Shown here: piece after piece, positions 2,821 through 33,414 of the stretch
How positions within the stretch are numbered: the first letter of the stretch is position 1
How the letters are laid out: the number at the start of each line of letters is the position of its first letter
Assembly: GCA_002281535.1 (NCBI GenBank)
Contig: NCGD01000010.1
Coordinates: 91,397 to 126,165 of the forward strand
Source: Sphingomonas sp. 28-63-12
GTDB lineage: Bacteria; Pseudomonadota; Alphaproteobacteria; Sphingomonadales; Sphingomonadaceae
Direction: 5' to 3'
DNA length: 34,769 bases
Translations under genes and position numbers: made by a program
The notes under the pieces: generated by a model
Database searches by the model: none
Told to the model about the DNA's origin: nothing
The model's input: only the letters and a program-made list of their open reading frames with translations

Positions 2821-3810
2821 ATGACTCGATTGTTCCTACGCGCCAGCGGGTTGCTTCTGCTGGCAGGCTGCCTAGCCGTGCCGATCGCGGCCGTCGCCCA
2901 ATCCGGCGCCGGCGTAATGAGGCGCGCCGCTGCGCCTGATCCCGTCGCACCAATCGGAATATCGATACGCGCTGATGGCCTGGTCGGCACCTGGTTCCCG
3001 CCCGCCAGCGGCAGGCGCAGCCCGGCGATCCTGGTGCTTGGCGGCTCGGAAGGGGGAGAAGAGAGCAGCAAACACATCGCGACCGCGCTTGCGACCAAGG
3101 GCTATGGCGTCTTGGCGCTTGCCTATTTCAGGGCCGACGGCCTGCCCAAGGCCTTTCAGGAAATCCCGCTCGACTATTTCGAGCGTGCGATCGCCTGGCT
3201 TGTCGCCCAGCCGCTCGCCGATCGCCGTCACCTTGGCCTGTACGGCATTTCCAAGGGCGCCGAGGTCGCGCTGCTGGTCGCGTCGCGACACCCCGAATTC
3301 ACGGCCGTGGTTGCCGCCGTGCCCAGTTCCGTCATCTGGCAGGGCTTTGATCCGGCCGATTACCGCGTCGTCAAATCGGGCTTTACCGATCATGGGGTGC
3401 CGCTACCCTATGTCCCTTATGACAATAGCGCCGCCTTTTCCGGCATTCTCGATCTCTACCAGCGCAGCCTGGCGCATGCCGACCACCATCCCGATGCGAT
3501 CATCCCGGTAGAGCGGATCGGCGGCGCGCTGCTGCTGCTGTCCGCGCGTGACGATAAATTATGGCCGTCGACCTTGATGGCCGACCAGATCATGGCCCGG
3601 CTAGACGCGCATCATTTCGTGCCGGTGCACCAGCACATCGCCTATGCCGATGCTGGCCATGGCAGCGTCGGTCCTGGCGGCGACCGGGCGCCCAATGGCC
3701 CGTATGAAAATGTCGGTGGCACCATAGCGGGCAATGCCGCCGCCCATGCCGACGCCTGGCCGCAGACCATCGCCTTTTTCGATCGAAACCTCGGCCGGCC
3801 CGCGCAATGA
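2821..3810 (+). CDS. Exported alpha/beta hydrolase, BAAT C-terminal-like acyl thioesterase/acyltransferase
   Basis: Counting from the ATG at 2821 the protein has 329 residues. The N-terminus is a signal sequence that could be read as a lipoprotein signal (LLAGC around residues 13-17) or as a Sec signal cleaved after AVA. The catalytic nucleophile is Ser144 in YGISKGAE, followed by the acid D244/D245 (SARDDKLWPS) and His280 (YADAGHGS), the layout of the acyl-CoA thioester hydrolase / bile-acid-CoA:amino-acid N-acyltransferase C-terminal family. The LGGSEGG loop near residue 74 fits an oxyanion-hole segment. The substrate cannot be told. An upstream GTG at 2809 would add four residues but overlaps the operator. 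The stop overlaps the next start by four bases, so it is the first gene of a three-gene operon. Confidence 0.8.
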   Translation: MTRLFLRASGLLLLAGCLAVPIAAVAQSGAGVMRRAAAPDPVAPIGISIRADGLVGTWFPPASGRRSPAILVLGGSEGGEESSKHIATALATKGYGVLALAYFRADGLPKAFQEIPLDYFERAIAWLVAQPLADRRHLGLYGISKGAEVALLVASRHPEFTAVVAAVPSSVIWQGFDPADYRVVKSGFTDHGVPLPYVPYDNSAAFSGILDLYQRSLAHADHHPDAIIPVERIGGALLLLSARDDKLWPSTLMADQIMARLDAHHFVPVHQHIAYADAGHGSVGPGGDRAPNGPYENVGGTIAGNAAAHADAWPQTIAFFDRNLGRPAQ

Positions 3811-4349
3811 AGCAACCGACCATCGACGCCGGCGAAGCGGCGGCGGCACTGGCCACGGTCGATCAGGCACGAACGCGATCAACCCAGTTTTTCGGCTATG
3901 CCCGTTCCGGCGGCATTGTCATCGCCTGGGGCCTGGTCTGGCTGACCGCCAATGTCGCCACGCACATCGATTGGGTTACGGGCCAATATTGCTGGGCAAT
4001 CGGCATCGCCTCGGCGATCCTGTGGACCTGGCACCGATCGCGCGGCGGCCCACGCAACTGGCGGATGCCCGGACTCGTCGTGCTGGTGTTCGTCTATTTG
4101 TTGGTCAGCGAAGCGATGATCGGTGGCGTCAATGCGCGGCTGCACAATGCCATGACGTCGATGCTGGTCGCCTCGATCTATGTCGGGCTGGGCTTCTGGG
4201 CCGGCATTCGATTTGTCGTCCTTGGCCTGGCCGTCATGGCCGCCATCCTTCTTGGCTGGTTCGTCTTCCCGGCATGGCTTTATCTGTGGCTCGGCCTGGG
4301 CGGCGGCGGCGCGCTGATCATCACTGGCCTGTGGCTACGGCGCGCCTGA
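3807..4349 (+). CDS. Hypothetical multi-pass membrane protein
   Basis: A 180-residue protein starting in an ATGA overlap with the hydrolase gene. After about 35 polar residues it has five or six hydrophobic segments: roughly residues 36-55, 60-76, 88-107, 115-132 and a long final stretch 134-176 that can hold two helices, ending in LRR. No catalytic or channel motif is recognised. Translational coupling to a hydrolase upstream and a winged-helix regulator downstream suggests the three act together, perhaps in a membrane-lipid or envelope response. That role is inference from position only. Confidence 0.75.
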   Translation: MKQPTIDAGEAAAALATVDQARTRSTQFFGYARSGGIVIAWGLVWLTANVATHIDWVTGQYCWAIGIASAILWTWHRSRGGPRNWRMPGLVVLVFVYLLVSEAMIGGVNARLHNAMTSMLVASIYVGLGFWAGIRFVVLGLAVMAAILLGWFVFPAWLYLWLGLGGGGALIITGLWLRRA

Positions 4350-4657
4350 TGATCGCGCAAGCTGACGAGGTGATCCACCAATCGACCCGACTCAAGATCA
4401 TGGCCGCGCTCGACAGCGATCCCGATCGCGCGCCACTGGATTTCATGCGACTGAAGGCGGTGGCCGGCGCAACCGATGGCAATCTCGGCGCGCATCTCTC
4501 CACCTTGGAAAATGCGGGGTATATCGCGATCGAAAAGCTGCCGAACGGCAAGCGTTTTCGTACATTAGTAACGATGACCCCCACCGGGCGCGACGCCTTT
4601 CGCGGCCATATCGCCTATCTGCAGGACATCCTCGACGCGGTGCGATCCCCCGGTTAG
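4349..4657 (+). CDS. Winged-helix DNA-binding transcriptional regulator (HTH_34-like)
   Basis: A compact 102-residue regulator consisting of little more than one winged helix. RLKIMAAL begins the first helix, the LDFMRLKAVAGATDGNLGAHLSTLE segment (about 32-54) is the helix-turn-helix with the typical TDGNL-x-x-HL recognition pattern, and the wing follows at KLPNGKRFRT. This matches the short PF13601-type regulators related to MarR/ArsR. No ligand-binding domain is present. Its ATG shares one base with the stop of the membrane-protein gene (TGATG), so it is the last gene of the operon that begins at 2821, and autoregulation through the palindromes at 2774-2809 is likely but inferred. Confidence 0.88.
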   Translation: MIAQADEVIHQSTRLKIMAALDSDPDRAPLDFMRLKAVAGATDGNLGAHLSTLENAGYIAIEKLPNGKRFRTLVTMTPTGRDAFRGHIAYLQDILDAVRSPG

Positions 4658-6539: not shown

Positions 6540-7625
6540 ATGAAGCGCCCCGCCCTTTCTATCGTCGTCCCCTGCTATAACGAAGCAGCCTGTCTCGACA
6601 TCCTCCACGCCCGCGTCTCGGCAGCGGCCAAAGCGGCGGTTGGCGAGGATTACGAGATCGTCTTGGTCAACGATGGATCGAAGGACGCGAGCTGGCCAAC
6701 GATGCAGCGGCTCGCCGCCGCCGATCCGCATCTCGTCGCGATCAACCTGTCGCGCAATCATGGCCACCAGCTGGCGCTGACCGCCGGGCTGGATCTGTGC
6801 TGCGGCGCGCAAATCATGATCATCGATGCCGATCTGCAGGACCCGCCCGAATTGCTTGCCGATATGCGCGCAACAATGATCGCCGAGCAGGCCGATGTCG
6901 TCTATGCGGTTCGCCGCAAGCGCGAGGGCGAGAGTGTCTTCAAGAAGCTGACCGCCGCGATCTTCTACCGAGTCCTCGATCGCGTCACCGATACCCCGAT
7001 CCCGCTTGATACCGGCGATTTCCGGCTGATGAGCCGGCGCGCGCTCGATGCGTTTCTCAGCCTGCCCGAACAGGCACGTTTTATTCGCGGGATGGTGGCG
7101 TGGATCGGTTTCCGCCAGGTGCCGTACCTCTATGACCGCGCCGAGCGCCATGCCGGCGAGACCAAATATCCGCTCGCCAAGATGATCCGCTTTGCGCTCG
7201 ATGCGGTGACTGGCTTTTCCACCGCACCCTTGCGCTTTGCCAGCCATGTCGGACTGGCGCTGACCGGGGCGTCTTTGCTGCTGTTCGTCTATATTGCGAT
7301 CGGCTTCTTCACTGGCACCGCCGTCCAGGGCTGGACCTCGACGATGCTCGTCGTGGTGTTGCTCGGCGCAGTGCAAATGTTCGTGCTGGGGATGATCGGC
7401 GAATATCTTGGCCGGCTCTATGTCGAATCAAAGCGCCGGCCGCTTTATCTGGTCGCCGATGTTGCCGGTCCGGTGCAGGGCCGCGCGACGTTGGGCTATC
7501 GCGCCGAGCCGGTGGCGATCGCCGCCCCGGTGGCGCTCCCTGAGCCAGCTTCAAAGCCTGCCACCAAGCCCGCGCCAGCAGCACGGCGCAAGCCGCGGAT
7601 CAAGCCGCCGGCGACGCCAGCGTAA
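6540..7625 (+). CDS. GtrB-like family 2 glycosyltransferase (polyprenyl-phosphate sugar transferase)
   Basis: Predicted to move a sugar from a nucleotide donor to a polyprenyl phosphate carrier on the cytoplasmic face of the inner membrane. The GT-A domain has SIVVPCYNE at the N-terminus, VNDGSKD near residue 43, the metal-binding D96-A-D98 in DADLQDPP, and the DTGDFRLMSR and HAGETKYP segments seen in GtrB/DPMS-type enzymes. Two transmembrane helices follow at about residues 235-260 and 267-287, ending in IGEYLGRLYVESKRRPLY, also typical. The last 50 residues are an Ala/Pro/Lys-rich tail that is probably disordered. GAGGGGG lies just before the ATG. Its end overlaps the convergent methyltransferase gene by 26 bp. 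A GtrA-like flippase candidate lies nearby at 8324. Confidence 0.9.
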   Translation: MKRPALSIVVPCYNEAACLDILHARVSAAAKAAVGEDYEIVLVNDGSKDASWPTMQRLAAADPHLVAINLSRNHGHQLALTAGLDLCCGAQIMIIDADLQDPPELLADMRATMIAEQADVVYAVRRKREGESVFKKLTAAIFYRVLDRVTDTPIPLDTGDFRLMSRRALDAFLSLPEQARFIRGMVAWIGFRQVPYLYDRAERHAGETKYPLAKMIRFALDAVTGFSTAPLRFASHVGLALTGASLLLFVYIAIGFFTGTAVQGWTSTMLVVVLLGAVQMFVLGMIGEYLGRLYVESKRRPLYLVADVAGPVQGRATLGYRAEPVAIAAPVALPEPASKPATKPAPAARRKPRIKPPATPA

Positions 7626-8331
7626 CGATCGACACACCGGGCGGCATCGGCATGCGGCCGACCAGATGCCGTTCCCAGCCGAAGATCGTCTCGAACAGCG
7701 TGTTGAGCGCGGCTGGTGGCGGCGAATCGTCGCTGTCGTCGCGCCCCGTCAGCCGTCCGGCGATTCGCGCGGCGGCAGCGAGCGGGAACAGCAGCGAATT
7801 GAAATAGCGCAGGCCATTATGGTCAAGCCCGGCCGCCGCAATCGCCTTGGCCAGGCTTGCCTTGGAATAGCGGCGATGATGGTGGTTGACCACGTCATGC
7901 GCGCTCCACAGCCATTGATGCGCGGGCACCGTGATCAGGATCTTGCCGCCCGGCTTCAGGCAGTCGCGCATTGCCCTGAGCGCGGCAACATCATCCTCGA
8001 TATGCTCGACGACATCGAGCACGGCGATCAGATCATAGGCGCCGCGTTCGATCCCCGGCAGCGCGGGTAGCGGCGCTGCGCTGACCGGCCGGCCGAGCCG
8101 CTCGCTGGCGATGCCACGCGCGACCGGATCGATCTCGATCGCCTCTACAGCACCGAATGTCGCCAGCATCGGCAGGTTGTGCCCGGTGCCGCAACCAATC
8201 TCCAGTATCCGCGCGCCCTTGGGCAGGCCAGCTTCGCGCGTCAGATAATCCGATAGAATCTCGCGCCGGGCGCGATACCACCAGTGCGTGGAATCATGCG
8301 CGGCCATCCGGTCATAGACGATTCTATCCAT
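7600..8331 (-). CDS. Class I SAM-dependent methyltransferase
   Basis: A 243-residue methyltransferase. Motif I is RILEIGCGTGHN near residue 40, the acidic end of strand 2 is EAIEID, and the DLIAVLDVVEHIEDD segment near residue 95 is the motif expected before a catalytic or substrate loop in methyltransferase type 11/12 folds. The HWWYRARREIL N-terminus is common among methyltransferases in polysaccharide and lipid-carrier loci. The start at 8331 is preferred over a start further upstream at 8373, which would lie deep inside the GtrA gene; the overlap with that gene is then 8 bases. It is the second gene of a gtrA-methyltransferase operon. The acceptor is unknown. Confidence 0.85.
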   Translation of the reverse strand: MDRIVYDRMAAHDSTHWWYRARREILSDYLTREAGLPKGARILEIGCGTGHNLPMLATFGAVEAIEIDPVARGIASERLGRPVSAAPLPALPGIERGAYDLIAVLDVVEHIEDDVAALRAMRDCLKPGGKILITVPAHQWLWSAHDVVNHHHRRYSKASLAKAIAAAGLDHNGLRYFNSLLFPLAAAARIAGRLTGRDDSDDSPPPAALNTLFETIFGWERHLVGRMPMPPGVSIVTLASPAA

Positions 8332-8794
8332 GTGTCGCAGCGCCCCCAAATACCCATTGACGGTTGAGCGCAAAGGTCGCGATCGGCGTGATCGTCACTA
8401 CCGGGATCAGCGCGACCCAGGCGGGCAGCCCCAGCAAGGCCGTAACGCCCCAGGTAAACCCGGCGTTGAGGGCAAGGCCAATGCCTTGCACGATCACGAA
8501 CTTGGTCTGCTGCCGGCCGCCCGGCTGGCGCGTGCCGTGCCCCTTGAAGCTCCAGCGGCTGTGCAGGAAATAGCCCGCCGTAACCGCGACGGCAAAAGCG
8601 AAGGGCACCGCATAGACCGCCTGGGCGGCGCGAAAAATATAGGCGGTGAGCGGCAGGTACACCGCTGAATAGATCACCGTCGACAGCCCGCCCGCGATCG
8701 CGAAGCGCACCAGCTGATCGACAATCTCGCGCCCGCCGAGCATTATGCCCAGCCGGTCGCCCAATCGATTGCCGAGATGGTTGAGAGATTTCAC
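8324..8794 (-). CDS. GtrA-family membrane protein (putative polyprenyl-phosphate-sugar flippase)
   Basis: GtrA proteins are small four-helix membrane proteins thought to flip polyprenyl-phosphate-linked sugars across the inner membrane. Here the core shows QLVRFAIAGGLSTVIYSAVY, a second helix ending before FAVAVTAGYFLHSRWSFKG (the diagnostic N-F-x-x-x-R-x-W-x-F-like segment, with H in place of N), then two more helices and a final FALNRQWVFGG. I chose the GTG at 8794, with AAAGGG ten bases upstream, giving 156 residues. An ATG at 8743 would also leave the whole family core, and the longest reading from 8869 collides with the divergent gene. The stop overlaps the methyltransferase start. Confidence 0.82.
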   Translation of the reverse strand: MKSLNHLGNRLGDRLGIMLGGREIVDQLVRFAIAGGLSTVIYSAVYLPLTAYIFRAAQAVYAVPFAFAVAVTAGYFLHSRWSFKGHGTRQPGGRQQTKFVIVQGIGLALNAGFTWGVTALLGLPAWVALIPVVTITPIATFALNRQWVFGGAATHG

Positions 8795-8854
8795 GTGCCG
8801 CTTGCCCTTTATGGAGGCCGCACTAGAGCGCGAGCACAGCCTAGGGAAGCATCT

Positions 8855-10642
8855 TTGAACAATCGGCACGATGGCGACACGCCGCTCGCCCTGGAAGTGA
8901 ACCGCAACTGGCGCAGCCTGACGCTGATCGCCTGGGCGCTGATCGCGCTATTTTACCTCTGGCAGCGCTGGCCAGCGATCCATTGGCTGTCGCTCGGCGA
9001 TACCGATGATAATATGCGGCTGATGCAGGTCCGCGCCCTGCTGAACGGGCAGGGCTGGTATGATCTGCGGCAATATCGGCTCAACCCGCCGCTGGGCTTT
9101 GACATGCACTGGAGCCGGATCGTCGATCTGCCGATCGCCGGCATGATCCTGGCATTCAGGCCCTTTGTCGGCACCGCGCTGGCCGAGCGATTGGCCTGCG
9201 GGATCGCGCCCTTGCTGCCGCTGTCCGTCGCGATGCTGGGGCTGGCCTTTACCGTTCGCCGGCTGGTCAGTCCGCTTGCCTGGCCGCTGGCGCTGATCTT
9301 CCTGCTAATGTGTACCGCGACGATGCTGATGTTCATGCCCGAACGCATCGATCACCACGGCTGGCAGCTCGCTTGCCTCAGCCTGACAGTCGCCGGGCTG
9401 GCCGATCCCCAGCAGCGGCGCGGCGGCATTATCGTCGGGCTGGCGAGCGCAGTGTCGCTCAGCATCGGCCTTGAAATGCTCCCCTATGCCGCCGGCGCTG
9501 GCGCGATCATGGGCCTGCGCTGGATCTGGGACCGCGCCGAGGCACCGCGCCTGACCGTCTATGGTCTGGCGCTCGCGGGCGGCAGCGCGATCGGCTATGT
9601 GCTGTTCGCGTCGAACGCCAATGCCGTGCTGCGCTGTGACGCGCTGACGCCCGTCTGGCTGAGCGTGATGATCGAGGCCGGTGCGCTGCTGTTCATCCTC
9701 GCCAGGATCAATCCTGATCTGCGCTGGGTACGTTTCGTGCTGGCGGCGGCGGCTGGCGTGGCGATCCTCACCGCCTTTGCGCTGGTCTTCCCGCAATGCC
9801 TTGGCCGGCCCGAACAGGTCTCCCCCGAACTCGCCGCCAACTGGCTCAACAATGTTCGCGAAGCCAAGCCAATCTATGCGCATCCCTGGCGTGGCGCGCT
9901 GAGCGTTGCGACCCTGCCGGTGATCGGTATGATCGGAGCGATCATCGCCACCTGGCGCGCCTGGCGGAGCGATCACTTTGCGGCCTGGGCGGCGGTGCTG
10001 CTGTTCACCCTGCTCGCCAGCGGGTTGCTGCTCTGGCAGGTCCGTGCCGGTGCCGCCGCCCAAATGCTGGCCGTCCCCGGCGCGGTCGCGCTTGGCTGGA
10101 TCGTCCTGCCCTGGTGCCTGGGCAATCGATCGGTCCTGGTGCGCGTGTTCGGTACAGTTGTCGCGTTCCTGGTCGTTTCGGGGGCTTTTGTCGGCTTCGT
10201 CGTTCAATATGCGGTGCCCGACAAACCAAGCAAGGGCACCAAGGCGGTCAACCGTGCCGGTGCTTCCTGCCCGACCATTCCGGCGCTGGCGGTGCTCGAC
10301 AAATTGCCGCCGCAGACCATCTTCACCTTTATCGATCTCGGGCCCCGGCTGATAACGCTGACGCATCATTCGGCAGTGGCCGGGCCTTATCACCGCAATG
10401 GCGATGCGATCCTCGACGTGCAGCACGCCTTTACGCGGACGGCGGATGATTTCCACGCCATCGCCCGCCGTCACGGTGCGACCCTGTTGCTGACCTGCCC
10501 CAACATGTCAGAATCAACGGTCTATACGGTCCGCTACCAAAATGGTTTCTACGCTCGGCTCGCCCGCGGCGAGACGCCGACCTGGCTCGAACCGCTGCCG
10601 CTGCCCAAGGGGTCCCCTCTCAAACTGTGGCGGATCCGATAG
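8855..10642 (+). CDS. Large integral membrane protein with STT3/GT-C-like motifs, putative glycosyltransferase
   Basis: Reading from a TTG at 8855 (AGGGAAG at 8843-8849 before it) gives 595 residues with about 11-13 hydrophobic helices and a soluble C-terminal part of about 120 residues. Similar sphingomonad proteins carry misleading AcrB/AcrD/AcrF labels, but the length and topology are wrong for an RND pump. After the first helix comes G-D49-T-D51-D52-N-M-R55, then WYDLRQYRLNPP and H85-W-S-R88, and later E-R-I-D166-H167-H168-G-W. STT3/PglB/AglB enzymes have an acidic D-x-D/D-D site plus Arg in the first loop and, in archaeal members, a D-H-H motif at a similar place. I infer a GT-C glycosyltransferase that uses a lipid-linked sugar. 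Its location beside GtrA- and GtrB-like genes agrees. Confidence 0.7.
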   Translation: MNNRHDGDTPLALEVNRNWRSLTLIAWALIALFYLWQRWPAIHWLSLGDTDDNMRLMQVRALLNGQGWYDLRQYRLNPPLGFDMHWSRIVDLPIAGMILAFRPFVGTALAERLACGIAPLLPLSVAMLGLAFTVRRLVSPLAWPLALIFLLMCTATMLMFMPERIDHHGWQLACLSLTVAGLADPQQRRGGIIVGLASAVSLSIGLEMLPYAAGAGAIMGLRWIWDRAEAPRLTVYGLALAGGSAIGYVLFASNANAVLRCDALTPVWLSVMIEAGALLFILARINPDLRWVRFVLAAAAGVAILTAFALVFPQCLGRPEQVSPELAANWLNNVREAKPIYAHPWRGALSVATLPVIGMIGAIIATWRAWRSDHFAAWAAVLLFTLLASGLLLWQVRAGAAAQMLAVPGAVALGWIVLPWCLGNRSVLVRVFGTVVAFLVVSGAFVGFVVQYAVPDKPSKGTKAVNRAGASCPTIPALAVLDKLPPQTIFTFIDLGPRLITLTHHSAVAGPYHRNGDAILDVQHAFTRTADDFHAIARRHGATLLLTCPNMSESTVYTVRYQNGFYARLARGETPTWLEPLPLPKGSPLKLWRIR

Positions 10643-19893: not shown

Positions 19894-21153
19894 TTACAAA
19901 TCCTTGGCGAGGCGCACGCCGGTGAACTGCCAGCGCTGGTGCGGATAAAAGAAATTGCGGTAGGCGGCGCGCAAATGCCCGCGCGGGGTGGCGCAGGAGC
20001 CGCCACGCAGCACACACTGGCCGCTCATGAACTTGCCATTATATTCGCCAACGGCTCCCTCGGCCGCGCGAAACCCCGGATAGGGGCGGAAAGCGCTGCC
20101 GGTCCATTCCCAGACATCGCCGAACCAGGCCGGGCCGGCGGTCGATGGCCTCGGCTCGACCGGTCCTGCCCGATCGAGCTGATTGCCGCTTTCAGGATCT
20201 TGCGCTTGTGCTGCCGCCTCCCATTCGGCCTCAGTCGGCAGCCGCGCCCCGGCCCAACTGGCATAGGCATCGGCCTCGTAAAAGCTGACATGGGTGACGG
20301 GCGCCGCCGGATCGATCGCGCGTCGGCCATCGAGCCCAAAGCGCGTCCAGCCGCCATCCCGTTCTGCCCAATAAAGTGGTGCGGTGATGCGCTGCGCCTT
20401 CACCCACGCCCAGCCGTCGGACAGCCAGTGGCGCGGATCGCGATAACCGCCCTCGGCAATGAAGGCGGCCCATTCGCCATTGGTGACGGTCCGGTCGGCC
20501 AGCGCATGGGGCGTGAGCAAAGTCTGGTGCCGCGGCCCCTCTGCATCAAAGGCAAAGCCCTCGCCGTTATGGCCGATGTCGACGATCCCGCCGGCATGGC
20601 AGATCCAGCCGATCGGCCCCGGCATTTCGACCGGCACCTTGCGCGGCGCGGGCCAAATCGCAGGTTCGGTCGGGTTCTGCGCAAACAGGTGCAGAATGTC
20701 GGTGATCAGCAACTCCTGGTGCTGTTCCTCATGATGGCAGCCGAGCGCCACCAGCTCGAGGGCGGCGGCCGGCAGCGCGGGCAGCGCCGCGAGCAGCGCG
20801 GCATCAACGGCAGCCCGATAGGCAAGCACTTCGGCCAGGCTGGGCCGGGTGATCAGCCCGCGTCGCCCGCGCGCTTGGCGTTCGCCCTCGGCCTCGTAAT
20901 AGCTGTTGAACAGGAAGGGGTAGCGCGCATCGTGTAGCTGATAGCCGCCGACATAATCGCGCAGGATGAAGGTTTCGACGAACCAGGTCGTATGGGCAAG
21001 GTGCCATTTGGCTGGCGACGCATCGTCCATCGATTGCACGCTGGCATCGGCATCAGACAGCGGCGCGACCAGCGCAACGCTCAACGCCCGCACATCGGCG
21101 TACCGCGTCGACAGCAGTGCCGGATCGGCAACCGGACTGGGCTTGGTCTGCAT
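19894..21153 (-). CDS. egtB: Ergothioneine biosynthesis sulfoxide synthase EgtB
   Basis: Iron(II)- and oxygen-dependent enzyme that joins a thiol donor to hercynine as a sulfoxide. The N-terminal DinB-like domain holds W50-H51-L-A-H54-T and H140-H141-E-E-Q-H145-Q-E, which together supply a three-histidine iron site. The C-terminal half is the formylglycine-generating-enzyme-like (FGE-sulfatase) domain: VTNGEW, PVTHVSFYEADAYASWAGARLPTEAEWE, WFGDVWEWTGSAFRPYPGF, VLRGGSCATPRGHLRAAYRNFF and the final RWQFTGVRLA. The 419 residues are complete. Whether cysteine or gamma-glutamylcysteine is the donor cannot be told from sequence here; absence of EgtA/EgtC nearby is only weak evidence. It starts 22 bp after the adenosyltransferase gene. 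Confidence 0.95.
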   Translation of the reverse strand: MQTKPSPVADPALLSTRYADVRALSVALVAPLSDADASVQSMDDASPAKWHLAHTTWFVETFILRDYVGGYQLHDARYPFLFNSYYEAEGERQARGRRGLITRPSLAEVLAYRAAVDAALLAALPALPAAALELVALGCHHEEQHQELLITDILHLFAQNPTEPAIWPAPRKVPVEMPGPIGWICHAGGIVDIGHNGEGFAFDAEGPRHQTLLTPHALADRTVTNGEWAAFIAEGGYRDPRHWLSDGWAWVKAQRITAPLYWAERDGGWTRFGLDGRRAIDPAAPVTHVSFYEADAYASWAGARLPTEAEWEAAAQAQDPESGNQLDRAGPVEPRPSTAGPAWFGDVWEWTGSAFRPYPGFRAAEGAVGEYNGKFMSGQCVLRGGSCATPRGHLRAAYRNFFYPHQRWQFTGVRLAKDL

Positions 21154-29435: not shown

Positions 29436-31511
29436 CTAATCACGCTCCACCCCCAGCTGCCACAGCACAAAGGCATGTTCCTCGGCTGATTCGCGCAGGC
29501 TCTCGAACCGGCCCGATTTGCCACCATGCCCCGCGCCCATATTGGTCTTGAGCAGCAGCACATTGTCGTCGGTCTTCACGTGCCGCAGCTTGGCGGCCCA
29601 TTTGGCGGGCTCCCAATAGGTTACGCGAGGGTCGTTCAAGCCGCCCGAGATGAACATTGGCGGATAGGCCTGGGGCTTTACGTTGTCGTAAGGCGAATAG
29701 CCCCGGATCAGCTCGAACGCCGCCTTGTCCTCGATCGGGTTGCCCCATTCGGGCCATTCGCCCGGGGTCAGCGGGAGTTCCGCGTCGAGCATCGTGTTGA
29801 GCACGTCGACAAAAGGCACATCGGCGATGACCGCGCCCCACAGTGCAGGATCGCTGTTGACGACCGCCCCCATCAGCTCGCCGCCCGCCGAGCGCCCCGC
29901 GATCGCGATCTTGCCAGCGCTCGTCCAGCCCTGCGCAATCAACCCCTTCGCCACATCGACGAAATCGTTGAAGGTGTTGATCCGCTTCTCCAGCTTGCCG
30001 TCGAGATACCATTGCTGGCCGAGATCGTCGCCGCCGCGAATATGCGCGATGGCATAGGCAAAGCCCCGATCGAGCAGCGACAACCGCCCGGTCGAAAAGC
30101 CCGGCGGGATCGCATAACCATAAGCGCCATACGCATAGAGGAAGAGCGGGCGCGATCCATCTTTCGGGAAGTCCTTTGGATAGACGATCGACACCGGCAC
30201 CTCGGTACCGTCGCGCGCGGTGATCTTCAGCCGGTCGGTGCCATATTGGCTGGCGTCATAGCCGCTCGGGATTTCCTGGACCTTCAGCACGGTCATGTCG
30301 CCGCTCGCAACGTCGTAATCATAGACCGTGCCGGGCGTGACCATCGATTCATAGCCGAGCCGAAGCACGCTCATGTCATATTCGGGATTGTCGCCGAGCC
30401 CGGCATCATAGCTCGCCTCGGGAAAGGCGATCCGCTTCGGCGCGCCGCCGTCGTACGAATGGATCTCGATCTGATCGAGCCCCTCTTCGCGCCCGTCGAC
30501 GATGAAGAAGCGCGCGAAACAGCTGACGCCGGTCATGTAGAAATCGGGCGAAGCGCCGATCAGCTCGGTCCAGCTGCCGGGGTCGCTGATCGGTGCGGTG
30601 CAAAGCCGGAAATTGGGATCGGTATCATTGGTGTGGATGAACAAGGTGTCGCCATGCGCGTCGACATCATATTCGCGCTCAACCTTGCGCGGCGATACGC
30701 AGACCGGCTTGGCGAGCGGATCGGTGGCGGGCAGCAGCCAGACTTCGCTCGTGACATGGTCGCCGGTCGCAATGACGATCCATTGCCGGTCGCTGGTTTC
30801 CGAAACACCGACGCGAAAGCCTTCGTCTGCTTCCTTGAACAGCTCGATATCGTCGCTGACCGGGGTGCCGAGCCGATGGAAACGGGCATTGTCGGTACGC
30901 CATTGATCATTGGCGAGGCCGTAGAGAAAGCCGCTGTCATCGGCCGCCCAAACGATTTCGGACAGCATGCCAGGAATGATTTCGGGCAGATGCTCGCCCG
31001 TCGCGATCACCTTGACCCGGACTTCGAACCGCTCCGATCCATTATCGTCGATCGCATAAGCGAGCAACCTGCCGTCATTGCTGACCGACAGCGCCCCCAG
31101 CCGGAAATATTCCTTGCCCTCGGCCAGTGCCGGCTCGTCGAGCAGCAATTCATCCGCAGTCTCATCGTCTTTGGCCGCCACCGGCTTGCGCCACCATTTG
31201 CGATATTGTCCGCCGGTCTCGAACGCCGTCCAGTAGAGCCAGTCGCCATCCTTTTGCGGGACCGAGGATTCGTCTTCCTTGATCCGCCCCTTCATCTCTT
31301 CATAGAGCCGGTCGGTAAGCGGCTTGAGCGGGGCCATCACGCCTTCGAAATAGGCATTCTCTGCCTCGAGATAGCCAAGGATATCCTTGTCAGCCACCGC
31401 CGGGTAACCGGGGTCCTTCAGCCAGGCATAGGGGTCGTCGATCGTCTGGCCATGGGCGGTAAAGCTATATTGGCGGCGATCTGCGCGCGGCGGCGTGGTG
31501 CTGGTTTTCAT
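29436..31511 (-). CDS. ptrB: S9 family serine peptidase, oligopeptidase B type
   Basis: Cleaves short peptides after basic residues in the family prototype. The 691-residue protein has a seven-bladed propeller N-terminal part (TIDDPYAWLKD at the start, typical of S9A) and an alpha/beta hydrolase C-terminal part. The catalytic triad can be read as S541 in GRSAGGEL, D627 in GGLNDPRVTYWEP and H662 in NMGAGHGGKSGR. RGGDDLGQQWYLDGK near residue 500 and the NDPRVTYWEPAKW segment are characteristic of oligopeptidase B rather than prolyl oligopeptidase. No signal peptide, so cytosolic. It is divergent from the Xaa-Pro aminopeptidase gene across 109 bp. Confidence 0.92.
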   Translation of the reverse strand: MKTSTTPPRADRRQYSFTAHGQTIDDPYAWLKDPGYPAVADKDILGYLEAENAYFEGVMAPLKPLTDRLYEEMKGRIKEDESSVPQKDGDWLYWTAFETGGQYRKWWRKPVAAKDDETADELLLDEPALAEGKEYFRLGALSVSNDGRLLAYAIDDNGSERFEVRVKVIATGEHLPEIIPGMLSEIVWAADDSGFLYGLANDQWRTDNARFHRLGTPVSDDIELFKEADEGFRVGVSETSDRQWIVIATGDHVTSEVWLLPATDPLAKPVCVSPRKVEREYDVDAHGDTLFIHTNDTDPNFRLCTAPISDPGSWTELIGASPDFYMTGVSCFARFFIVDGREEGLDQIEIHSYDGGAPKRIAFPEASYDAGLGDNPEYDMSVLRLGYESMVTPGTVYDYDVASGDMTVLKVQEIPSGYDASQYGTDRLKITARDGTEVPVSIVYPKDFPKDGSRPLFLYAYGAYGYAIPPGFSTGRLSLLDRGFAYAIAHIRGGDDLGQQWYLDGKLEKRINTFNDFVDVAKGLIAQGWTSAGKIAIAGRSAGGELMGAVVNSDPALWGAVIADVPFVDVLNTMLDAELPLTPGEWPEWGNPIEDKAAFELIRGYSPYDNVKPQAYPPMFISGGLNDPRVTYWEPAKWAAKLRHVKTDDNVLLLKTNMGAGHGGKSGRFESLRESAEEHAFVLWQLGVERD

Positions 31512-31539
31512 CGCCTATCCCTAACCGGTCGCATCAAGC

Positions 31540-31571
31540 GAAGTCGAGAGGCAGCACCGCGCCTCGACTTC
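31540..31571. repeat. Inverted repeat with GAAGTCGAG arms, REP-like
   Basis: GAAGTCGAG (31540-31548) and CTCGACTTC (31563-31571) are perfect inverted 9-bp arms around a 14-base spacer in the divergent ptrB-pepP region. The arm sequence resembles short intergenic palindromes built on CTCGACTTC that I recall as common in sphingomonad genomes. Only one copy is seen in this window, so a REP family cannot be shown here. A shared operator for the two divergent genes is the alternative. Confidence 0.45.
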
Positions 31572-31620
31572 ACCGGGTACGACGGGGTAAGATGGTTGAT
31601 CACATTATTCAGGATCAGCC

Positions 31621-33414
31621 ATGTCCACTCATGCCGACCGCCTTTCCGCGCTGCGCGACCAGCTCAAGCGCGACCGTCTCGACGGCTTTGTCGTGCCGCT
31701 AACCGATGAACATATGTCCGAATATGTCGGGGGCTATGCACAGCGGCTTGCCTGGCTGACCGGGTTTCAGGGATCGGCAGGCACGGCGGCGGTGTTGCCG
31801 GAAGCGGCAGCGATCTTTACCGACGGGCGCTATACGCTGCAGGTGCGCCAGCAGGTCGATGGCGAGAATTGGGCCTATGTCGGCGTGCCGCAGACCAGCG
31901 TCGCCGAATGGCTGGGGGCGCATGCCGCAAAGGGTGCGCGCATCGGCTATGATGCCTGGCTCCACAGCCGCGCCTGGGTGCTCGAAGCGAGTAAGGCGCT
32001 GGCCGAGTCTGGCGCCGTGCTGGTGCCCGTCGATACCAATCCGGTCGATGCCGTGTGGCCAGATCGCCCGGCCCCGTCCGTTGCGATGCTTGAGGTTCAT
32101 CCCGACGATCAGGCGGGGCAATCTTCGGCCGAAAAGCGCGCCAGCATCGCCGACTGGCTCGCCGCGCGCAAAGCAGATGCGGTGGTGCTGACCGCACTTG
32201 ATTCGATCGCTTGGGCACTCAATATCCGGGGTCGGGATGTCGATCACACGCCAGTCGCGCTTGCTTATGCGATCGTCCAGGCAGATGGCACCGCCGATCT
32301 GTTTATCGCCGCCGAAAAGCTGACCGATCCGGTCCGCCTGCATCTCGGCAACGCGGTCCGGGTGCATGATCGCAGCAGCTTTACCCAGGCGCTGGCGGGA
32401 TATGCCGGCAAGCGCGTCGCCGCCGATCCTGAGCGCGCGGTAGCGGCGATCTTCGACGCGCTGGATGCGGGCGGGGCCATCATCCTCGCGCAACGCGATC
32501 CCGTCGTGCTCGCCAAGGCGCTCAAAAACCCGGTCGAGATTGCCGGCCATCGCGCCGCATCGGCCCGCGACGGCGCGGCGCTTGCACGCTTCCTGCGCTG
32601 GGTCGAGGCCGAGGCTCCCAAGGGCGGCCAGACCGAATTGTCCTGCGCTGCCAAACTGCTCGAATTTCGTCAGGCCTCGGGATTGCTGCTTGATACCTCG
32701 TTCGATACCATTTCGGCGACTGGCGGGCATGGCGCCTCGCCGCACTACCGCGTCGACGAAGCGTCCAACGCACCGCTTGAATATGGCCAGCTCTATCTGG
32801 TCGATTCGGGCGGGCAATATCAGGACGGCACCACCGATGTGACGCGCGTCCTGCCGATCGGCGAACCGACGCGCGAGATGCGGGACCGCTTCACACGCGT
32901 GCTCAAGGGGCATATCGCGCTCGCCACGGCGGTATTCCCGCACGGCACCAATGGCGGCCAGCTCGACGGCTTTGCGCGGCGGCCCTTGTGGGAAGCCGGG
33001 CTGGATTACGCGCATGGCACCGGCCACGGCGTTGGCGCCTATCTGGCGGTGCATGAAGGGCCCCAGCGCATCGCCACGCCCAGCTATCCCGGCGGCGGCC
33101 CGGGCGAACCGCTGCGCGCCGGCATGATTATCTCGAACGAACCCGGTTATTATAAGGCCGGCGAATATGGCATCCGAATCGAAAACCTGATCCTGGTCGA
33201 GGATCGCATCATCAATGGCGCCGAATCGCCGATGCTGGGTTTCGAAACACTGACCTTCTGCCCGATCGAGCGCAGCCTGATCATCGCCGAGATGTTGACC
33301 GACGCGGAAATGCGTTGGCTTGACGCCTATCATGCCGATGTCTTCGCCGTACTTGCCCCGCAAATGCAGGGTGACGAGCTTCACTGGCTAGAGGCAAAAT
33401 GCGCACCGATTTGA
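31621..33414 (+). CDS. pepP: M24B family Xaa-Pro aminopeptidase
   Basis: Removes an N-terminal residue linked to proline; cytosolic, two-metal enzyme. The 597-residue protein is the long three-domain form seen in alphaproteobacteria and eukaryotes, with two creatinase-like N-terminal domains (ALRDQLKRDRLDGFVVP at the start) and a C-terminal pita-bread catalytic domain. Metal ligands can be placed at D395 (DSGGQY), D406 (TTDVTR), H469 in HGTGHG, E507 (NEPGYY) and E521 (RIENL), with H465 as a proton-shuttle candidate. AGGA lies just upstream of the ATG. The gene symbol follows common usage; E. coli PepP itself is shorter. It is back to back with oligopeptidase B, suggesting shared peptide catabolism. 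Confidence 0.92.
   Translation: MSTHADRLSALRDQLKRDRLDGFVVPLTDEHMSEYVGGYAQRLAWLTGFQGSAGTAAVLPEAAAIFTDGRYTLQVRQQVDGENWAYVGVPQTSVAEWLGAHAAKGARIGYDAWLHSRAWVLEASKALAESGAVLVPVDTNPVDAVWPDRPAPSVAMLEVHPDDQAGQSSAEKRASIADWLAARKADAVVLTALDSIAWALNIRGRDVDHTPVALAYAIVQADGTADLFIAAEKLTDPVRLHLGNAVRVHDRSSFTQALAGYAGKRVAADPERAVAAIFDALDAGGAIILAQRDPVVLAKALKNPVEIAGHRAASARDGAALARFLRWVEAEAPKGGQTELSCAAKLLEFRQASGLLLDTSFDTISATGGHGASPHYRVDEASNAPLEYGQLYLVDSGGQYQDGTTDVTRVLPIGEPTREMRDRFTRVLKGHIALATAVFPHGTNGGQLDGFARRPLWEAGLDYAHGTGHGVGAYLAVHEGPQRIATPSYPGGGPGEPLRAGMIISNEPGYYKAGEYGIRIENLILVEDRIINGAESPMLGFETLTFCPIERSLIIAEMLTDAEMRWLDAYHADVFAVLAPQMQGDELHWLEAKCAPI

Follow-up and report, generated by a model that had tools for sequence, protein, structure and literature searches.

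The four-gene locus at positions 6540–10642 of a stretch of DNA from Sphingomonas sp. 28-63-12 (contig NCGD01000010.1; 34,769 nucleotides, referred to here as the window) probably encodes a resident sugar-transfer system made up of three components and a tailoring methyltransferase. A GtrB-like enzyme would use a nucleotide sugar to load polyprenyl phosphate with a monosaccharide, probably a hexose, at the cytoplasmic side, and the methyltransferase would O-methylate the sugar or its precursor. A GtrA-like protein would then move the lipid-phosphate sugar across the inner membrane, and a GT-C enzyme of 595 residues, its metal site of AglB/STT3 type, would transfer the sugar onto an extracytoplasmic acceptor, probably one other than an N-X-S/T sequon. 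We infer the donor type, the order of the steps, the methylation of the sugar and the use of a divalent metal. All four genes named in the original prediction, which saw here a candidate glycan-modification locus, are present, and this view is supported by the fold of the large protein, the conserved gene arrangement and the active-site residues of GtrB. As the arrangement recurs in related genomes, it is not due to chance. The assembly that holds the window comprises 3.48 Mb in 54 contigs. The elements of the locus are:

6540–7625, plus strand: 361-residue GtrB-like polyprenyl-phosphate glycosyltransferase with a GT2 part and membrane helices; PF00535, E = 1.1e-28.
7600–8331, minus strand: class I S-adenosylmethionine (SAM) methyltransferase, 243 residues from ATG; PF13489, E = 1.3e-21 (scored on a longer TTG form).
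8324–8743, minus strand: small membrane protein of GtrA type, 139 residues from ATG, proposed as flippase; PF04138, E = 5.5e-18 (scored on a longer GTG form).
8744–8854, no strand: divergent intergenic region between GtrA and transferase, 111 bp, putative promoter region, read from the sequence.
8855–10642, plus strand: STT3/AglB-fold GT-C protein, candidate transferase, 595 residues, TTG start; AlphaFold and Foldseek.

The predicted structure supports the large protein as a GT-C enzyme of STT3/AglB shape with AglB as its nearest match. The AlphaFold model, built with a 63-sequence alignment, has a predicted local distance difference test score of 86.8 and a predicted template modelling score of 0.87. 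The top match of a Foldseek search against the PDB was A. fulgidus AglB (7e9s; E = 4.6e-11, probability 1.00, TMq 0.66), followed by STT3 chains (E = 4.6e-10 to 2.5e-8), DPY19 (1.8e-7), PglB (9.8e-7 to 3.0e-5), ArnT (3.9e-5 and 5.4e-5; TMq 0.40–0.43) and AftA (3.9e-4). Judging from the titles and identities of the chains, we take all 23 matches at E ≤ 0.001 to be GT-C enzymes; transporters had a probability of at most 0.18 among the best 50 matches. Comparison with PglB, AglB and ArnT thus places the protein in the GT-C superfamily, AglB being nearest and ArnT behind, as expected from the likeness to STT3/AglB that had been noticed in its sequence. The model ends in a mixed helix–strand region (about residues 460–595), which we read as a predicted soluble domain.

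Candidate active-site residues were examined in two alignments. Alignment A1 (n = 63) holds the window protein and 62 of 80 related loci. These 80 score best among 212 confirmed loci, thus are close relatives, and come mostly from records titled Sphingomonas. The diverse set has 23 proteins, including the window protein and copies from other alphaproteobacterial families. The positions are:

8999–9019, plus strand: D49-T-D51-D52-N-M-R55, motif of the first external loop; identical in 63 of 63 sequences of A1.
9350–9358, plus strand: D166-H167-H168, letters as in AglB, whose second DXD motif reads Asp-His-His; alignments.
9860–9862, plus strand: E336, fully conserved acid of a loop in EL5-like position, which may correspond to Glu360 of AglB; 23 of 23 in the diverse set, loop order.
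10043–10045, plus strand: R397, invariant Arg, candidate phosphate-binding Arg; 23 of 23 in the diverse set, assignment presumed.
10334–10342, plus strand: D494-L-G496, assumed to occupy the site of WWDYG in oligosaccharyltransferases; both Trp absent, correspondence judged by eye.

The residues D49, D51, D52, R55, D166, H167 and H168, which had been singled out in the original prediction, are each found in all 63 sequences of A1. In the diverse set D51, H167, H168, E336 and R397 are constant and D166 is kept in 22 of 23 proteins, but D49 and D52 vary; the catalytic Asp of the first loop is most likely D51, and not D49 or D52. As H85, E207 and C548 are equally constant in this set, constancy alone does not single out active-site candidates. 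The metal ligands of AglB are described as Asp47 (first DXD motif) and Asp161 and His163 (Asp-His-His motif), Glu360 of TIXE in EL5 being nearby (PMC8342417). Their candidate counterparts in the window protein are D51, D166, H168 and E336, respectively. The spacing between D51 and D166 is 115 residues as compared with 114 in AglB, and in the model E336 sits in a loop between helices 290–311 and 345–368.

The motif WWDYG, which binds the Ser/Thr of the sequon, is replaced by FIDLG in the window protein; there is no Trp pair, and the Asp (D494) is kept in 17 of the 23 diverse proteins. The C-terminal region comprises only about 130 residues, that of AglB 370 (PMC8342417). The donor and metal side looks oligosaccharyltransferase-like by its residues, yet it would be wrong to class the protein with the N-glycosylation enzymes, given the FIDLG without Trp pair and the short C-terminal region. 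An N-sequon oligosaccharyltransferase was rejected on the absence of WWDYG, and a DPY19-type metal-free enzyme on the conservation of D51, D166 and H168, whose metal binding is itself a prediction.

The GtrB of the window aligns over residues 6–310 to Synechocystis sll0501 (GtrB), its nearest solved structure (E = 1.7e-76 vs 1.1e-43 for the nearest ArnC). The Synechocystis enzyme is described as making undecaprenyl-phosphate-glucose, with D94, D96, R122, D157 and R200 located in its active site (PMC4728340). All five align to identical letters in the window GtrB, assuming an offset of 23 in the chain numbering. This alignment and the retained residues make a lipid-phosphate hexose a plausible product, glucose being not proven. 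An AglB-like site would be compatible with such a product, since the donor of euryarchaeal AglB is a monophosphate lipid-linked one (PMC8342417). The best NCBIfam score of the window GtrB is to PgfS (E = 2e-73), but below its cut-off (247 of 500 bits). GtrA is a clear member of PF04138 (65.7 bits vs a cut-off of 26.1). The methyltransferase matches general SAM-methyltransferase Pfam models only, and no NCBIfam model exceeds its cut-off among the 25 matches listed.

The four genes co-occur in related genomes. GtrA adjoins the transferase divergently in 79 of the 80 loci, the exception (L058) ending at a contig edge, and the methyltransferase is next to GtrA in 78. GtrB, which lies inside the retrieved DNA in 72 loci, converges on the methyltransferase in 59, and in 59 loci all four genes are in register. 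Two of the records, titled Arthrobacter sp. (L067) and Bacillus sp. (L070), carry a Sphingomonas-type locus and are apparently mislabelled or mixed assemblies. MarC is found at most 1.3 kb downstream in 60 of the 80 loci, and none of 50,697 phage records gave a match at E = 1e-5. These results do not suggest a phage origin, in line with the earlier suggestion of a resident chromosomal system, and a phage serotype-conversion cassette was rejected. Twelve plasmid records had a match, mostly a partial one. The distribution of the genes over both strands, which had been contrasted with phage operons, is present in the window but is one layout of several: in a locus from another genus (L142), GtrA, GtrB and the methyltransferase are in tandem, divergent from the transferase.

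A sample of 119 genomes of the family Sphingomonadaceae was searched with E thresholds of 1e-3 (transferase), 1e-25 (methyltransferase), 1e-45 (GtrB) and 1e-100 (a flavoprotein, see below). Six transferase fragment rows were merged or dropped, 96 places were kept, and counts for GtrA are lower bounds. The transferase was found in 81 genomes and the methyltransferase in 29, all of which also have the transferase (hypergeometric 1.9e-6, relatedness ignored). Twenty-four of the 29 methyltransferases lie within 8 kb of the transferase and 27 adjoin GtrB. For the 35 closest transferases, at least 30 have a GtrA gene no more than 4 kb away, 21 have the methyltransferase and 21 a GtrB at up to 8 kb. 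For the full set of 96 places, at least 59 have GtrA at this 4-kb distance. The pair of GtrA and transferase is the more common core.

Seven window-type GtrBs are 64–80% identical to that of the window, two more are at 54 and 49%, and the rest, which include the GtrBs of tandem arrangements (41% for G059), do not exceed 43%. By these identities GtrB seems to have been exchanged during evolution, which could explain the two-strand layout. In an order-level sample queried with the single sequence, the transferase was present in 22 of the 26 family genomes and was not found in any of 73 others. A class-level sample queried with a profile gave 23 of 192 genomes, several by short or weak matches.

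Divergent transferases of the family are found in a run of flavoprotein, GtrA and transferase genes (L139:10305-14218, L140, L143, L168:2361-6239). The nearest solved relatives of the flavoprotein are UDP-galactopyranose mutases (E = 3e-23); its score against the NCBIfam model for these mutases, TIGR00031, is far below cut-off (47.1 of 303.75 bits), and its best NCBIfam model, NF005545, is a hypothetical protein. The 119 genomes contain 50 flavoprotein genes, 47 of them at most 4 kb from a transferase; the flavoprotein accompanies 48 of 61 divergent transferases and none of the 35 close ones. Since the methyltransferase is found by close transferases and the flavoprotein by divergent ones, the tailoring enzyme seems to have been exchanged between branches, flippase and transferase being kept. 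The flavoprotein run is probably a sister system with another sugar, and the exchange suggests modular diversification of one surface sugar.

On a Novosphingobium plasmid (L168), the flavoprotein run faces a GtrA-fused membrane protein of 615 residues in all, together with a methyltransferase and a GtrB that are 44% and 37% identical to those of the window. In the fused protein (L168:6282-8129) the GtrA domain is joined to about 490 residues of a membrane protein of no assigned family; it does not match the transferase profile and is possibly a one-chain flippase-transferase. The genome of the window also has a second transferase copy on contig C12 (L126:7005-10544), 35% identical, which adjoins a 540-residue membrane protein of no Pfam or NCBIfam family; the two may form a pair. 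This copy and 11 from other families make up the divergent loci L126–L137, some of which are short stretches. Four of them (L127, L128, L130 and L131) have mixed neighbours: ThiC, adenosine deaminase, pantoate ligase and, in L127, two other flavoproteins.

The locus resembles the GtrA/GtrB/Gtr(type) systems of O-antigen glucosylation in having a polyprenyl-phosphate sugar synthase, a GtrA-family flippase candidate and one GT-C protein. It differs from them by its place beside housekeeping genes, its two strands, the extra methyltransferase and perhaps the predicted STT3 shape of the GT-C protein. The single operon expected of three-component systems is not found, the window genes being on both strands. 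With STT3, AglB and PglB the window protein shares the predicted fold and, as candidate counterparts in matching order, a first-loop Asp, a DHH second motif, a later-loop acid and an Arg. Unlike these, it has no significant sequence-family match, carries FIDLG for WWDYG, has a shorter C-terminal region and is linked to a monosaccharide-lipid synthase.

A precedent for an STT3-like fold using a lipid-phosphate monosaccharide is DPY19, described as an STT3-like GT-C enzyme with such a donor, metal-independent and without obvious metal residues (PMC10154233); this C-mannosyltransferase is close to the window protein in fold, which, unlike it, keeps the AglB-like residue set. The Citrobacter pentofuranose systems (GT136) are described as having a lipid-phosphate sugar synthase, a flippase, a GT-C protein and accessory enzymes for sugar variation (PMC11127046). 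They differ by a MATE flippase and a donor based on phosphoribosyl pyrophosphate. A likeness to Pgf protein glycosylation of Streptococcus mutans (PgfS, PgfM1; PMC5856776) concerns the NCBIfam score of GtrB to PgfS. In a literature search of titles and abstract openings, with subscription papers outside its coverage, no description of the locus was found. If the proposal is true, the locus joins a gtr-type supply of lipid-phosphate sugar and an oligosaccharyltransferase-type enzyme in one alphaproteobacterial family.

The acceptor may be a glycolipid or surface polysaccharide (a glycosphingolipid or an exopolysaccharide), as in serotype-converting gtr systems, and we hold this tentatively, with a little less than even confidence. 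Glycosphingolipids replace much of the lipopolysaccharide in sphingomonads, and would offer such a target. Gtr and pentofuranose three-component systems are described as modifying O antigen (PMC11127046). However, the nearest folds are mostly those of protein-modifying enzymes, and the locus is flanked by DUF885, MarC, FolD-type and ArgB-like genes rather than by a glycan cluster. Alternatively, the GT-C enzyme could be a sequon-independent bacterial glycosyltransferase that places one, perhaps methylated, sugar on exported proteins. AglB, STT3, DPY19 and PglB all modify polypeptides, and the putative soluble domain at the C-terminus would fit a protein acceptor, as would the constancy of H513 and R514 (63 of 63 in A1), Cys548 (23 of 23 in the diverse set) and Cys472 (22 of 23). 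Against this, WWDYG is missing, the C-terminal region is far shorter than that of AglB, ArnT-like enzymes with lipid acceptors share the superfamily, and no acceptor gene is linked to the locus; we consider a protein acceptor rather unlikely. More doubtful still is the fuller proposal of an undescribed alphaproteobacterial STT3-fold family that would transfer polyprenyl-phosphate monosaccharides onto exported proteins, independently of a sequon, and work with interchangeable tailoring enzymes, either the methyltransferase or the flavoprotein related to UDP-galactopyranose mutase, the latter perhaps giving a furanose.

A number of results weigh against a sugar-transfer system built around an STT3-like enzyme. 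Several concern the large protein, for which no Pfam or NCBIfam family reaches its cut-off. The 63 members gave only chance-like Pfam matches (best Zip, E = 0.0069), and the NCBIfam model archaeo_STT3 a weak signal in eight of them (best E = 0.0067, far below cut-off; the window protein itself has 7.9 bits, cut-off 450). Profile–profile comparison (hhalign) with six bacterial STT3-like proteins, for which the profiles are shallow, was not significant (E = 0.028 and 0.14, probability below 2%). PDB sequence searches with the single protein and with the 63-sequence profile gave chance-level matches only. PF02516, the STT3 sequence profile, has no match in the genome of the window, and PF13231 (ArnT/PMT_2) none in the large protein, the five PF13231 matches of the genome lying elsewhere. 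In the fold comparison, one PglB entry (3.0e-5) is hardly ahead of ArnT (3.9e-5), and the motif-bearing loops are among the weaker parts of the model (10-residue means 63–78). The active-site assignments are based on order, loop and conservation, not on superposition, and the Arg that precedes the second motif of PglB and AglB by seven residues (PMC7226087) is not kept, position 159 being Met. The STT3 affiliation is one of fold and of the order of active-site residues, not of sequence-family membership.

The remaining contrary results concern linkage. By profiles of the close relatives, none of the 12 divergent copies L126–L137 has a GtrA, GtrB or methyltransferase neighbour, and the view of a system therefore holds only for the Sphingomonadaceae. 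The methyltransferase is linked more tightly to GtrB (27 of 29) than to the transferase (24 of 29), an indication that it acts on the sugar donor. Of the 35 closest transferases, 14 lack a methyltransferase above threshold within 8 kb, and 14 likewise lack a GtrB. The former, with GtrA near at least 30 of the 35 and the flavoprotein in place of the methyltransferase at divergent copies, would fit a methyltransferase that is a bystander or acts on another target such as the acceptor, the core being GtrA and the transferase with GtrB supplied in trans. Such a role appears improbable to us, as nearly all methyltransferases adjoin GtrB and 78 of the 80 close loci keep the gene beside GtrA. We thus prefer the three-component system with a tailoring methyltransferase.

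Identification of the large protein as an RND transporter, as in the named public annotation of one close copy (ABDZ99_RS08850, 62% identical, ‘AcrB/AcrD/AcrF family protein’), is almost certainly wrong and was rejected: no transporter family is above cut-off in Pfam or NCBIfam, and the predicted model contradicts it, with GT-C enzymes as its 23 best matches. The annotated copy, from Sphingomonas parapaucimobilis (L167:6067-7836), is apparently misnamed. With no Pfam or NCBIfam cut-off reached and an efflux-pump name on a close copy, the transferase is easily overlooked.

The convergent GtrB and methyltransferase genes overlap by 26 bp. On the minus strand, the 8 bp shared by GtrA and the methyltransferase suggest that their translation is coupled. 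The large gene is divergent from GtrA; an alternative upstream ATG at 8777 would make a protein of 621 residues. The TTG at 8855 looks right as the start, since this codon and the AGGGAAGC stretch just upstream are kept in four of five relatives compared (L004–L007, not L009). The locus is flanked by the DUF885 gene on one side and, on the other, by the genes for MarC, a FolD-type protein (tetrahydrofolate dehydrogenase/cyclohydrolase) and an amino-acid kinase (ArgB-like).

Three other reading frames of the window were noted. The long open reading frame at 3734–4657 looks partly spurious: residues 219–299 are a winged-helix domain (PF13601), and the first part resembles, by eye, an out-of-frame stretch of an earlier gene. 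The plus-strand frame at 29436–31709 (727 residues) has no Pfam match and overlies a 691-residue minus-strand prolyl-oligopeptidase gene (PF02897, PF00326), and is thus probably spurious. The protein encoded at 19894–21153 combines DinB-like and sulfatase-modifying-factor-like domains, an architecture like that of the ergothioneine enzyme EgtB.

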